A stretch of DNA of 34,247 bases from a virus, in IMG/VR virus record IMGVR_UViG_3300020411_000751, positions 1 to 34,247 of that record. One strand, given 5' to 3'. Position numbers and translations under genes: made by a program. A model generated the notes under the pieces. The model worked only from the letters and a program-made list of their open reading frames with translations, had not been told where the DNA came from and ran no database searches. Shown piece after piece: positions 2,658 through 9,208 of the stretch. Position 1 is the stretch's first letter. Every line of letters starts with the position of its first letter.

Positions 2658-3029
2658 TTAACTTAGGTCGATGTTAATCTTTATATCGCCTTGAATATTG
2701 TGAGCTACCTTGTCCGGTGCTCTCAATCCAACTCTATCTAGGATGTCCCTACTAGCTTCGAGCTGAACATACTCACTTCTCGCTCCTGAAGACAGGTCGA
2801 TAAGTTTCCTAGACGCACTTACTGCACCAAGTCCTAGAGTATTTGCTATACTTCGTTGCATATAACTCTGTACCTTTGGTAATCGTAGTGTGCGACTTGC
2901 ACTTACTCTCCCTGCTTCTTCGCTTCCTTTACTTGAATATCCAGCTGTTTTAGCTGCTTCCTTGATGCTACATCCAGTTGTTACGATAGTATCAACTAGC
3001 TTCTTTTGTTTCTCTGTTAAGTCCGTCAT
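2658..3029 (-). CDS. terS: Terminase small subunit
   Basis: A 123-aa protein whose N-terminus (LTEKQKKLVDTIVTTGCSIKEAAKTAGYS, residues 4-32) is the helix-turn-helix of phage small terminases, which recognises the packaging start. The middle is Ala/Ser-rich and helical, suited to ring formation, and the C-terminal tail (about 105-123) would contact the large subunit. It is the first gene of the minus-strand packaging operon. An in-frame TAA lies just upstream of ATG 3029, so this start is forced. The start codon sits beside one arm of an 11-bp inverted repeat and overlaps a plus-strand promoter candidate. Confidence 0.82.
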   Translation of the reverse strand: MTDLTEKQKKLVDTIVTTGCSIKEAAKTAGYSSKGSEEAGRVSASRTLRLPKVQSYMQRSIANTLGLGAVSASRKLIDLSSGARSEYVQLEASRDILDRVGLRAPDKVAHNIQGDIKINIDLS

Positions 3030-3034: not shown

Positions 3035-3097
3035 GCTTTTATTATTCTACCCCTAACTGTTCGTAGTGGCAGAATTTCTCCTTGTCAAGCGTTATAT
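3028..3097. repeat. 11-bp perfect inverted repeat between divergent operons
   Basis: ATATAACGCTT (3028-3038) and AAGCGTTATAT (3087-3097) are perfect complements separated by 48 bases. Each arm carries a TATAAC -10-like element facing its own direction. The left arm overlaps the small terminase start codon. It could be an operator for a regulator binding both operons, or the base of an RNA stem if transcription starts upstream. Confidence 0.6.
3042..3075 (-). promoter_or_regulatory. Candidate minus-strand promoter for the terminase operon
   Basis: On the minus strand, a -35-like CTGCCA is followed after 17 bp by TAGAAT (3047-3042), five of six to the -10 consensus. Transcription would start about 3035, leaving only a few bases before the terS ATG at 3029, so the message would be nearly leaderless. 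A perfect TTGACA also lies at 3089-3084 but lacks a good -10. Weak call, chosen partly from position. Confidence 0.3.
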
Positions 3098-3360
3098 TAG
3101 GACTTTAGTGGTTGTTGCTACGCACAACACTATATCTGGTAGTCAAGAACCTACGGTTCTTAACGATCTCCCTTGGAACGATAACATTAAGATTAGAATA
3201 AGGAATCGCCAAAGGCGATGCTTTGGTTCCCCATACGCAGTTTTCACTCTAAAGGCAATCTGCACAGCGACAGATTGCTATTCGCTAAGGACTCGCCTGA
3301 CTGTTGGTAAACCAACATCTAGGCATCGTCCTACGCTATTAATTAATAAGGATGAAACCC

Positions 3361-3485
3361 CTGCGTTACTCGAAACGCAGGAAGCTGTGCTTCCTCTTGC
3401 CCAAGGGCAATTCACCATCCTGATAAGGGCGTTTCTGCGTTACTCGGTACTGCTATGGGGCCCCCACACACACGGGAGTTACTCG
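3361..3485 (+). repeat. Three copies of GTTACTCG within the structured region
   Basis: GTTACTCG occurs at 3365-3372, 3439-3446 and 3478-3485. The first two are part of a longer 12-base direct repeat, CTGCGTTACTCG (3361-3372 and 3435-3446). The first copy is half of an 8-bp hairpin. The second could instead pair with ACGCAG at 3235-3240, giving a possible long-range contact between domains. Confidence 0.6.
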
Positions 3486-3670
3486 CTTGTATCACGAGTT
3501 TGCCTCAATGGGAATGCCCTTCGCTTCGCTTCGGCGAGGACACGAAGGTCGCACACAAGGTGCAACCCCTGTGTCGCATTCAACCATTGAGCTTTGCCTC
3601 GTGATGACTGCTCGAGGTAATCCCATGAGTGTTAAATGATATGGGTTAATTAAATAACTAGGAGGATGAT

Positions 3671-3871
3671 ATGAATATATCTGAAAAAGCTAGAGATTTG
3701 ATAGCTTACTTCAAGATTCGTGAAGATAGTGATAAAATCAAGCGAGTTGAGGAGTTAGCTGTTAAAAGAGATGTAGCTGAATCGGTAGGTAATACTGATG
3801 AAGTTGCTATCATAGATAGTGAGTTAACTAACTATGGTGAAATAAATCCAATTAAACAAAAAGGAGTATAA
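3671..3871 (+). CDS. Hypothetical protein, 66 aa
   Basis: Not recognised. Small, charged and probably all-helical (EKARDLIAYFKIREDSDKIKRVEELAVKRDVAE), with no membrane segment. An excellent AGGAGG (3660-3665) precedes the ATG. It is the first protein gene after the structured noncoding region and is probably on the same transcript. It ends one base before the next gene, so the pair form a short operon closed by the terminator at 4398-4438. Confidence 0.75.
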   Translation: MNISEKARDLIAYFKIREDSDKIKRVEELAVKRDVAESVGNTDEVAIIDSELTNYGEINPIKQKGV

Positions 3872-3872
3872 T

Positions 3873-4385
3873 ATGGATAATGTGAAAAACATATACAAAG
3901 ACGATCCTGAAAGCAGATTGCTTAATATGGAATTAGTCCTTGATGATAATGAGAAAGCTATGATTGATGGTGTAAAAACTTTTGTACAATCAATCATTAC
4001 ACCTTTCGTAGATTGCCAAGATTGGGCTAGAATAGCTGAATGGAATTTTGATTCAGTTTATGGTTCAATGTATAGACATGACGAAATGTGTAATTCTTCG
4101 TTGGATAAATCCAAAGAGGAATTGAAAAAGTATACTTCAGAAGATGTAGGTACTGAAATCTCTAAAGGTAAATTATCTACTGCTTTATTCAAGGTTAAAG
4201 CACAAACTTTAAACTGTAGAAGAAGTGGATTAATTGTTAAAACTTTAGAAGATGAGTATAAGAAAATCTTTGATAAAGATTATGTACCTAAATCTAAAAG
4301 AGGCAATGTCACAGATAAAGTTTATGTGGACAAAGCTGAAAAAGATATGATGATAGCTGAAGCTAATAAGCTGTTAGCTGTTTAA
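3873..4385 (+). CDS. Hypothetical protein, 170 aa
   Basis: No family recognised. The protein is soluble, mixed acidic/basic and predicted helical. Cysteines occur at about residues 49, 70 and 113 but form no metal motif. It has a Lys-rich C-terminal part (KSKRGNVTDKVYVDKAEKD). A ribosome binding site (AAAGGAG) overlaps the end of the upstream gene. It is followed directly by a strong terminator, so it is the last gene of the unit that begins with the structured RNA region. That makes it a candidate partner of the RNA, by context only. Confidence 0.8.
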   Translation: MDNVKNIYKDDPESRLLNMELVLDDNEKAMIDGVKTFVQSIITPFVDCQDWARIAEWNFDSVYGSMYRHDEMCNSSLDKSKEELKKYTSEDVGTEISKGKLSTALFKVKAQTLNCRRSGLIVKTLEDEYKKIFDKDYVPKSKRGNVTDKVYVDKAEKDMMIAEANKLLAV

Positions 4386-4397
4386 TATCAAAAAATT

Positions 4398-4438
4398 AGC
4401 CCTTGTATCTCTATTAGTGAGGTATGAGGGCTTTTTTT
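4398..4438 (+). terminator. Rho-independent terminator of the first early unit
   Basis: AGCCCT (4398-4403) pairs with AGGGCT (4427-4432). Inside it TATCTC (4406-4411) pairs with GAGGTA (4419-4424) through one U-G pair. Seven T residues follow (4432-4438). The U-G pair and the T-run fix the direction as plus. Confidence 0.88.
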
Positions 4439-4444
4439 ATCGTG

Positions 4445-4461
4445 TTTAGAATCATTCTAAA
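4445..4461. promoter_or_regulatory. 17-bp perfect palindrome, operator-like
   Basis: TTTAGAAT-C-ATTCTAAA is fully symmetric about 4453. It is nested in a wider inverted repeat, CGTGTTT (4441-4447)/AAACACG (4468-4474). It lies between the terminator and the promoter at 4510-4537, a fitting place for a regulator site; the phage encodes two Cro/CI-type proteins. No binding partner can be assigned. Confidence 0.5.
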
Positions 4462-4473
4462 GAGGCAAAACAC

Positions 4474-4488
4474 GGTGGGGCAAAAACC
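4474..4488 (+). repeat. GGTGGGGCAAAAACC motif, intergenic
   Basis: The same motif with one extra G is on the minus strand at 2597-2612, also intergenic and also just after a hairpin. A looser version, GAGGGGTAAAAACC, is on the minus strand at 12575-12588. Together with the nearby palindrome it fills the 176-bp gap 4386-4561, which also holds a terminator and a promoter. Meaning unknown. Confidence 0.4.
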
Positions 4489-4509
4489 TGTGAGGTGCTA
4501 CCGAATAGG

Positions 4510-4537
4510 TTGCATCCACAATTAATAAGTGTATAAT
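4510..4537 (+). promoter_or_regulatory. Sigma70-type promoter for the second early unit
   Basis: TTGCAT (4510-4515), 16-bp spacer, perfect TATAAT (4532-4537). The start is predicted near 4544, with an AAAGAGG ribosome binding site before the ATG at 4562. It sits downstream of the terminator and palindrome, so it opens a separate early transcription unit. Confidence 0.7.
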
Positions 4538-5274: not shown

Positions 5275-5421
5275 ATGAAAGTAAAAGTAAATAAAGATCC
5301 TGATAAACCTGAAAAGTTTACATGGTCTAAACATAAAAAGTGGTTAAGCACTTTTACAGATTGTAAAACTGTTTATCCTGAAACTAATAAAAGAAAAAGA
5401 GGTAAAAATGCCAAACGATAA
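5275..5421 (+). CDS. Hypothetical small basic protein, 48 aa
   Basis: ATG 5275 is preceded by GAGGAGTATAT. The product is strongly basic (MKVKVNKDPDKPEKFTWSKH to KRKRGKNAKR) with a single Cys, likely a nucleic-acid or protein-binding miniprotein. Its end overlaps the start of the ParB-like gene by 14 bases. No family recognised. Confidence 0.6.
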   Translation: MKVKVNKDPDKPEKFTWSKHKKWLSTFTDCKTVYPETNKRKRGKNAKR

Positions 5422-6145
5422 AATATATAAAACTAGTGACCTTGCTCAATTTAAATATGTAAAAGGTAATAGATCTATACATGAACCTTGGGTAAGAAAA
5501 TTAGCAGAGCTTATTAAAGAAAAAGATCTGCAAATGCCTATCATAGTAGATGAAAATATGAGGGTACAAGATGGACAACATAGATTAGAAGCATATAAAC
5601 TATGTGGTTTTCCTGTAACATACATCATCAAAAATAAATTTGAATTAGATGATGTAAGAGCATTAAATGCTAATGCTAAAAAATGGACATTAACTGATTA
5701 TTTAATGAGTCATGTTAAGTTGGGTAATAAAGAATACCAACTATTAGAATGGTTTGTTAAAACATATAACTTTCCTGTATTAGCTTCTTGTGCAATGCTA
5801 AATGGCAAAGGTTATACTGACCATCATATTGTTAGTTCATTTAAAAAAGGTGAATTTAAAATTAAAGATCTAGAGTGGGGAAAAACACAAGCTAGAAGAA
5901 TATTATGGATTGGAGAGTTTTTCCAATACTATAAAAAGAGAAACTTTATAGACGCATGTTTATCTGTTTTTCAAAATAAAACTTTTGATTGGAAGTTATT
6001 TAAGAAAAGATTAGAAAACAATTCTGCTAAATTGAAAAATCAAGGTAGTAGAAATGAGTTTATAATTAACATTGAAAGAATTTATAATACAGGAACATCA
6101 TCTAAATATAAAATTAGATTGGAACTGTATGATTATAAAAGATAG
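5408..6145 (+). CDS. ParB/Srx-like N-terminal domain protein, 245 aa
   Basis: Residues about 5-75 look like the ParB/sulfiredoxin nucleotide-binding fold: a helix (EPWVRKLAELIKE), then PIIVDENMRVQDGQHRLEAYK with the GQHR box at 56-59. The remaining 170 residues are helical and basic and unlike the DNA-binding part of chromosomal ParB. Phage proteins with this domain may be CTP-dependent clamps, nucleases or regulators; which applies is unknown. It is the largest gene of the early unit begun at 4562. A structured 164-bp gap follows it. Confidence 0.8.
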   Translation: MPNDKIYKTSDLAQFKYVKGNRSIHEPWVRKLAELIKEKDLQMPIIVDENMRVQDGQHRLEAYKLCGFPVTYIIKNKFELDDVRALNANAKKWTLTDYLMSHVKLGNKEYQLLEWFVKTYNFPVLASCAMLNGKGYTDHHIVSSFKKGEFKIKDLEWGKTQARRILWIGEFFQYYKKRNFIDACLSVFQNKTFDWKLFKKRLENNSAKLKNQGSRNEFIINIERIYNTGTSSKYKIRLELYDYKR

Positions 6146-6309
6146 AATTGCCTTTAGGATTAGCTCCCTAATGTTAAGCCCAGGTATACCAGTAAACAAT
6201 CGCTGCTCGGCTTCATAGCAATAACTCAAGTATCGGAGAGAACGAGTGGTTAGCCCCCAACGAATGTTGGGGACTGACTCGATATGAAAGAAAGAAAGAA
6301 AGAGGTCTT
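6146..6309 (+). promoter_or_regulatory. Structured leader upstream of the DUF932-like gene
   Basis: The gap holds several perfect stems: ATTAG-CTCC-CTAAT (6159-6172), the palindrome GGTATACC (6184-6191), and a nested hairpin. In the last, CGAGT (6243-6247)/ACTCG (6277-6281) surrounds CCCCAAC-GAAT-GTTGGGG (6255-6272). A run of four GAAA units and AAAGAGG follow directly before the ATG. No intrinsic terminator or convincing promoter is visible. It may be a cis-regulatory RNA controlling translation; no known riboswitch is recognised. Confidence 0.45.
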
Positions 6310-8401: not shown

Positions 8402-8708
8402 TGTAGAAAAAGCAGTTGAATATTTAGCAAGTACTGATGAGCAACATGCTAAAATAGCTGCAAGTCAAGAGTCAATGAGAGATGCTGAAAAACATACTAA
8501 AGGTAAATTTGTTCTTGAACATAATGATTTACCTGTTTCTAAAGCTGAACACTCTTACTATGCTAGTAAAGAATTTTTAGAAATATTAAAATTAAAAAAA
8601 GAAGGTTTTGAGCATTTAAAAGAGTTGACAAATAAACGACAAACTGCTGTATTGCGTATCGAAATATGGAGAACGCTTGAAGCATCTAGAAGGAAAGGAA
8701 ATGTTTAA
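8388..8708 (+). CDS. Hypothetical helical protein, 106 aa
   Basis: Almost entirely helix-forming and charged (VEKAVEYLASTDEQHAKIAASQESMRDAEK, later LEILKLKKEGFEHLKELTNKRQTAVLRIEIWRTLEASRR). This suits a coiled-coil structural or DNA-associated early protein. It shares its last base with the start of the DnaA-like gene (TAATG), so the two are translationally coupled. No family assigned. Confidence 0.7.
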   Translation: MKLNDVEKAVEYLASTDEQHAKIAASQESMRDAEKHTKGKFVLEHNDLPVSKAEHSYYASKEFLEILKLKKEGFEHLKELTNKRQTAVLRIEIWRTLEASRRKGNV

Positions 8709-9208
8709 TGAATTTTAAACATGTTTACTCTATGGCTAGAAAAGCTCCCGAATATGAGGGACTTACTGATAGAGAAACAATTATATACCGAACTGCATTT
8801 AGGAATGGTTTTAGATCTGGTGCAGCACTTCGTCAAAAAATTAAAAAAGTTATTATACCTAATAGACCAGCAGATATTCCAGCTGGGCCAATTATTAATA
8901 ACCAAAAAATAGTTGATTCAATTTATAATGTTGTAGTTGATTATTTCCGAGTTTCTAAAGTTGAATTAATAGGCAAATGTAGAGATCAGTATTTAGTGAT
9001 ACCGAGATCTATGATAGCGAATTTAATGAGAGAATGTACTGCATTGTCATTTCCTGAAATTTCTAGAATAATGAATAGAGATCATACAACTGTTATTCAT
9101 TATGTGAAAACAAGAATTGGGAGTTACTCCTTTTGGAAAACTCCTAATAACCATAAAGTATATAACTATTTAAAAACAGAGGTGTTAAATGAAACAAGCA
9201 AGAAATGA
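8708..9208 (+). CDS. DnaA domain IV-like DNA-binding protein, 166 aa
   Basis: Residues about 67-137 match the C-terminal DNA-binding domain of DnaA. IVDSIYNVVVDYFRV is followed by KVELIGKCRDQYLVIPRSMIANLMRECTALSFPEISRIM and the signature NRDHTTVIHYVKTRI (123-137). The AAA+ ATPase (domain III) is absent and replaced by a short basic N-terminus. It may bind DnaA boxes on host or phage DNA to recruit, block or mimic the host initiator. No phage polymerase, helicase or primase is visible in the window. It overlaps the next regulator gene by 20 bases. Confidence 0.88.
   Translation: MNFKHVYSMARKAPEYEGLTDRETIIYRTAFRNGFRSGAALRQKIKKVIIPNRPADIPAGPIINNQKIVDSIYNVVVDYFRVSKVELIGKCRDQYLVIPRSMIANLMRECTALSFPEISRIMNRDHTTVIHYVKTRIGSYSFWKTPNNHKVYNYLKTEVLNETSKK

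Follow-up and report, generated by a model that had tools for sequence, protein, structure and literature searches.

The window analyzed here, a 34,247-nucleotide stretch of viral DNA (IMG/VR record IMGVR_UViG_3300020411_000751), carries between positions 3490 and 3606 a domain that is real, noncoding and selected as a structure, a conclusion we hold as practically certain. Comparison with relatives indicates that this domain is one exchangeable arm of a modular leader of about 500 nt, rather than a self-contained unit. The leader is probably read from the + strand, into an early operon that diverges from the gene for the terminase small subunit, and it is tentatively explained as the cis-acting head of the early message.

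The conserved arm and its homologues

A search with the terminase small subunit protein of the window (P0001) gave 80 loci on viral contigs, to which scans with ATGGGNCCC..CACACACG added more; these loci yielded 48 distinct homologues of the domain with its flanking sequence. The sole phage isolate matched by the terminase protein was Pelagibacter phage Hodr, at 59% identity. A core-motif scan of genome contigs returned scattered unrelated genomes, apparently chance matches, and these were discarded. The domain in the window is composed as follows.

3490-3498 with 3598-3606, + strand: helix H1, TATCACGAG with CTCGTGATG (covariation)
3499-3503 and 3592-3597, + strand: internal loop, TTTGC opposite CTTTGC (wobble positions kept in homologues)
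3504-3511 with 3584-3591, + strand: helix H2, CTCAATGG with CCATTGAG (covariation)
3512-3517 with 3576-3581, + strand: helix H3, GAATGC with GCATTC (covariation)
3582-3583, + strand: AA bulge between the 3' strands of H3 and H2
3518-3538, + strand: variable hairpin, UUCG-capped in the window
3539-3575, + strand: arm GACAC/GTGTC around a GCAC..GTGC hairpin (local fold and relatives, by eye)

An earlier note on this DNA had described a near-perfect domain with a three-way junction, and the letters that it gave for the outer helices, the internal loop and the AA bulge are found at the places given. The 126-nt segment 3485-3610 folds with a minimum free energy (MFE) of -51.4 kcal/mol (z -4.98), matched by none of 200 shuffles. 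For the 116-nt domain the MFE is -50.2, unequalled among 1154 tiled 116-nt windows elsewhere in the genome on both strands; the best of these, at -42.2, overlaps the terminator at 4398.

Covariation was measured in 26 distinct homologues, aligned by a hand fit from which bulged bases were removed, a treatment that leans slightly towards structure. Taken together, H1, H2 and H3 have standard pairs in 99.2% of pair cells, and 14 of their 24 pairs are changed on both sides, a number reached in none of 500 shuffles. Doubly changed cells number 74, against 17.4 +- 4.6 in the shuffles (again 0/500), and sliding the partner strand by one to three columns leaves only 1-4 doubly changed pairs. In H2 and H3 alone, 13 of 15 pairs show changes on both sides; the forms of H2 among the homologues include CTCAATG/CATTGAG, CTTAATG/CATTAAG, CTAAATG/CATTTAG, CTGAATG/CATTCAG and TTCG/CGAA. 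Compensatory base changes, the mark of a conserved structured RNA, are thus present in H1-H3, as they are in the long-range helix P_A and in a second type of arm described below. The outer helices and internal loop are strongly supported by the 26 homologues and are the best-defined part of the region, a place that the earlier note gave to the domain as a whole.

The two wobble-capable positions of the internal loop (UUUGC/CUUUGC) are standard in all 26 homologues, with U.G in 21 and U-A in 5 at the first and G.U in 24 and A-U in 2 at the second, the shuffle control being uninformative for the loop. Set against each other, the UUUGC strands can stack symmetrically through noncanonical pairs (U.C, U.G, U.U, G.U, C.U), a consistent reading of the letters rather than a proof. 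Such a stack would explain the symmetry remarked on earlier more simply than the protein or RNA contact then suggested.

A protein-coding origin for the domain was ruled out: arm lengths differ among the homologues by other than multiples of 3, and stops interrupt every frame in most of them, so that no frame is held open across them and the sequence is noncoding.

The inner module behaves quite differently from H1-H3, although the letters drawn for it are likewise present in the window. The CGC-UUCG-GCG arm occurs in 6 of the 48 homologues and the helix CCTTCG 3518-3523/CGAAGG 3543-3548 in 7, with no compensated substitutes for the latter among the 48. By eye, the homologues retain GACAC 3539-3543 and GTGTC 3571-3575 around the GCAC/GTGC hairpin in place of the ACACA/TGTGT helix drawn before; some relatives have AAAAGT/ACTTTT instead, both strands changed in concert, and some carry optional additional hairpins. 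This distribution marks the three-way junction with its UUCG cap as a local variant outside the conserved core.

The leader and its exchangeable arms

The elements that surround the arm are these.

3140-3640, + strand: structured leader RNA, about 500 nt, limits approximate (fold z and fixed position of the homologues)
3230-3240, + strand: 5' strand of helix P_A, CCCATACGCAG (11 distinct homologous pairings)
3450-3459, + strand: 3' strand of helix P_A, CTGCTATGGG (the same 11 pairings)
3461-3474, + strand: C-rich and invariant strand, CACACACACG (alignment of homologues)
3474-3485, + strand: 5' strand of helix P_B, GGGAGTTACTCG (covarying variants by eye)
3613-3624, + strand: 3' strand of helix P_B, CGAGGTAATCCC (covarying variants by eye)

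The + strand of 3139-3660 folds with z -6.8, and in a test of diverse relatives nearly every leader folded much more stably than its shuffles, the exception being the + strand of L058. P_A is a long-range helix of the form CCCATA-c-NNNN/NNNN-TATGGG; its 11 distinct pairings show between two and four Watson-Crick types in three columns, and the stretch that it encloses runs from about 31 to 225 nt across relatives. The invariant strand CACACACG follows 3' of P_A. Helix P_B, with variants such as GTGGATTAATGTGC/GCACACCTTAACCAC in relatives, closes the H1-H3 arm, which does not stand alone but belongs to the larger leader. Other relatives have a second type of arm at this place, built of AACAAGG/CCTTGTT and loop strands rich in TCCCC, in whose consensus fold 18 of 49 pairs show at least two Watson-Crick types. 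Arms and inner domains are swapped as modules while the junction (P_A, CACACACG, P_B and H1-loop-H2) is retained; the family comprises 48 distinct domains of type 1 and about 20 further variants of the arm. With the junction fixed and the arms exchangeable, the role of each module can be tested directly. One relative, L084, has a shortened arm (near L084:9314), either a deletion or an assembly artefact.

Genomic setting, strand and possible function

The leader lies between two divergent transcription units.

2658-3029, - strand: terminase small subunit gene (P0001), the divergent neighbour (Pfam Terminase_2, E 2.9e-10; PHROG terminase small subunit, E 3.6e-11)
3060-3088, - strand: likely promoter of the terminase operon (TTGACA 3088-3083, 17 nt, TACGAA 3065-3060; conserved in the alignment of relatives)
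3104-3140, + strand: likely leader promoter (TTTAGT, 18 nt, CACTAT; start near 3139-3140)
3671-3871, + strand: P0002, a 66-aa protein with no assigned function (ribosome-binding site 3660-3665)
3873-4385, + strand: P0003, a 170-aa protein with no assigned function, a helical bundle by its predicted fold
4398-4440, + strand: predicted strong intrinsic terminator closing the P0002-P0003 unit (present in 24 of 25 relatives)

In the motif loci whose neighbours are present, the terminase small subunit gene is always divergent and P0003 always downstream on the strand of the leader. The leader promoter block ACTTTAGT..ACNCACAATACTATAT is conserved directly 5' of the structured region in most relatives and absent in some. 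A near-palindrome at 3104-3135, TAGTGGTTGT..ACAACACTA, spans this promoter, with seemingly compensated variants in relatives, and might serve as an operator or fold into a hairpin. Homologues of P0002 are confined to loci with a leader of this kind, those of P0003 being spread more widely within the terminase family; no informative solved relative was found for the predicted fold of P0003. In the loci examined the leader stands directly 5' of the P0002 ribosome-binding site. An additional gene lies between leader and P0002 in L131, L141, L147 and L043, where the RNA is undisturbed, as expected if the leader heads the operon. No promoter or terminator was found between the structured region and the P0002 ribosome site, and 35 of 36 leaders lack a terminator before P0002.

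A position between divergent promoters, with the gene for the terminase small subunit adjacent, would also suit a DNA-level element, such as a packaging site, a replication origin or a cruciform whose hairpins act as DNA; in its favour, too, nearly all pairs are Watson-Crick and G.U is scarce whichever strand is read. Bulges that are asymmetric, internal loops that are conserved and a P_A that encloses 31-225 nt are nevertheless typical of folded RNA and hard to accommodate in duplex DNA, so we regard such an element as very improbable.

Beyond the terminator a second conserved element (4436-4520, + strand; consensus ATCG..TCGG..GTTGCTGCCGAA), belonging to no known family, precedes the next early gene. 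Within it, GAGGCAAAACACGGTGG at 4462-4478 is 76% complementary to the H2/loop strand 3584-3600, a possible long-range contact. In the clade of the window a sigma-70-like promoter (TTGCAT-16-TATAAT, 4510-4537) follows the terminator, so that read-through is dispensable there. In about eight relatives (L020, L025, L034, L035, L036, L045, L047, L051) the second element and the start of the next gene are 17-33 nt apart and no promoter better than shuffles was found before that gene, for which reason read-through of the terminator seems to be needed in them. Elsewhere in the window, strong hairpins (CCCACCCATCGAATGATGGATGTGGG; GTAGGTGGTCACCTAC) occupy a further intergenic stretch downstream of the terminase small subunit gene, at 2566-2654, and others (e.g. 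CCCCAACGAATGTTGGGG) lie between early genes at 6146-6309. Possible replication control is suggested by a ParB-like protein at 5408-6145 and by an early protein that carries the C-terminal DNA-binding domain of DnaA at 8708-9208 on the + strand (PF08299, E 1.5e-17).

The + strand is probably the one that carries the RNA, since P0002 and P0003 must have a promoter, for which there is space only 5' of the leader. Fold energies and hairpin-loop types do not decide the strand, both strands of the leader and its relatives folding about equally well and the - strand no worse than the +. A structured RNA on the - strand, as a leader or a separate RNA ahead of the terminase operon, would account for several features. 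Isolated 1x1 helix mismatches read on the + strand are A.C in 30 unique contexts and G.U in 11, so that more of them become G.U on the - strand; consensus energies are lower on the - strand in all five sets; and the unpaired composition of the type-1 domain on that strand is A>U>G>C. The mismatch asymmetry comes in part from one strand of the helix being invariant, as in several cases, and it disappeared in a broader count (GU 59, AC 63). The internal-loop wobbles and the outer U.G pair also favour +, no - strand promoter is recognized by eye at the P0002 end, and genes inserted at that end leave the RNA undisturbed. A - strand RNA is thus improbable.

The best explanation as a whole, held tentatively, makes the leader the cis-acting head of the early message. 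Whether by this or another mechanism, action in cis on early gene expression seems about evenly balanced between true and false. Transcription of the + strand would start at the promoter near 3104-3139, and the leader would form the 5' untranslated head of a unit comprising leader, P0002, P0003 and terminator. Once folded, the nascent leader might modify the elongating polymerase or recruit a factor, and the altered polymerase would read through the conserved intrinsic terminator that follows P0003 and on into the rest of the early genes, much as in RNA-based processive antitermination. Antitermination is the foremost candidate mechanism because of the conserved terminator and the probable read-through in some relatives, yet taken specifically it is a possibility that we rate low. 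The covariation of the helices, the noncoding sequence, the fixed position and the terminator in 24 of 25 relatives count for the cis-acting head; the promoter in the clade of the window, the length of the leader, the mismatches and energies of the - strand, and the missing + promoter in some relatives count against it.

The leader might instead govern only the stability or translation of P0002 and P0003, for example as a 5'-end shield against nucleases or Rho or by masking the ribosome-binding site. Its place directly ahead of that site is in keeping with this, as is the restriction of P0002 homologues to loci with such a leader, and in the window 3324-3346 (inside P_A) and the P0002 ribosome-binding region (3646-3668) show 74% complementarity. 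A modular structure of some 500 nt nevertheless far exceeds the needs of simple shielding, and we think this account unlikely.

Relation to known phage RNAs

In the ocean, few bacteria or phages are as abundant as SAR11-like bacteria and the phages that infect them, and the regulatory RNAs of SAR11 phages are largely undescribed in the literature searched; that on pelagiphage noncoding RNA and antitermination gave no description of the leader RNA. The leader family is widespread in marine phages and has no database entry. Rfam 15 (including GOLLD, ROOL and IMES) gave no match at the gathering threshold in the window and 20 relatives, and only sub-threshold chance matches at relaxed E. A BLAST search of the leader and a type-2 relative against phage records found no isolate, with one chance match in a cyanophage tail-fibre gene. 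The leader might, somewhat doubtfully, represent a new family of large, recombinationally modular phage leader RNAs, widespread in pelagibacter phage-related marine phages and serving as antiterminators or as a ribonucleoprotein scaffold with P0002/P0003.

With GOLLD and ROOL the leader shares large size, ornate form, phage origin, a conserved core with variable modules, and a knowledge based mainly on comparative sequence analysis. By the lack of an Rfam match it is neither of them. It differs also in its length of about 500 nt and its fixed place between the terminase small subunit gene and the early operon, GOLLD and ROOL lying near tRNA genes; and for the leader a free RNA is a conjecture. 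A free-standing RNA of their kind, processed off the leader and acting in trans by forming a particle or binding host machinery, with the downstream genes incidental, would fit the size, the ornate modular fold and the pairing of a variable with a conserved half. The conserved GGG(N)CCC beside P_A, almost a palindrome (GGGGCCCC in the window), could allow dimers; published ornate phage RNAs form homo-oligomers (PMC12286853). Such an RNA is unlikely all the same, given the absence of Rfam matches, of tRNA genes in the window (which GOLLD and ROOL often adjoin) and of a terminator before P0002 in nearly all leaders, and the constant tie of the leader to the same operon. If free, the RNA would add to the small number of ornate RNAs known from phages.

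HK022 put and EAR are structured RNAs at the head of an operon, early or long, that contains an intrinsic terminator further downstream, and the cis-acting leader resembles them in standing at the start of an operon with a terminator downstream. It differs in sequence and fold and in the promoter that follows the terminator in the clade of the window, and for the leader antitermination is a proposal. Known antitermination RNAs are much shorter; as an antiterminator, the leader would rank with the largest RNA elements of this class. Like phi29 pRNA it is a structured RNA of phage origin in which a junction closes the arms, but it is far longer and has no pRNA-like Rfam match. A packaging RNA of the pRNA type replacing the small terminase was rejected, an ordinary small terminase gene adjoining the leader. 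In Pelagibacter phage EXVC031P Hodr (OQ414635; L081 2651-3000) a long arm with internal loops (z -5.2) occupies the same position, between the gene for the terminase small subunit and the first gene divergent from it; it has no sequence similarity to the leader, and the likeness is one of position and form.
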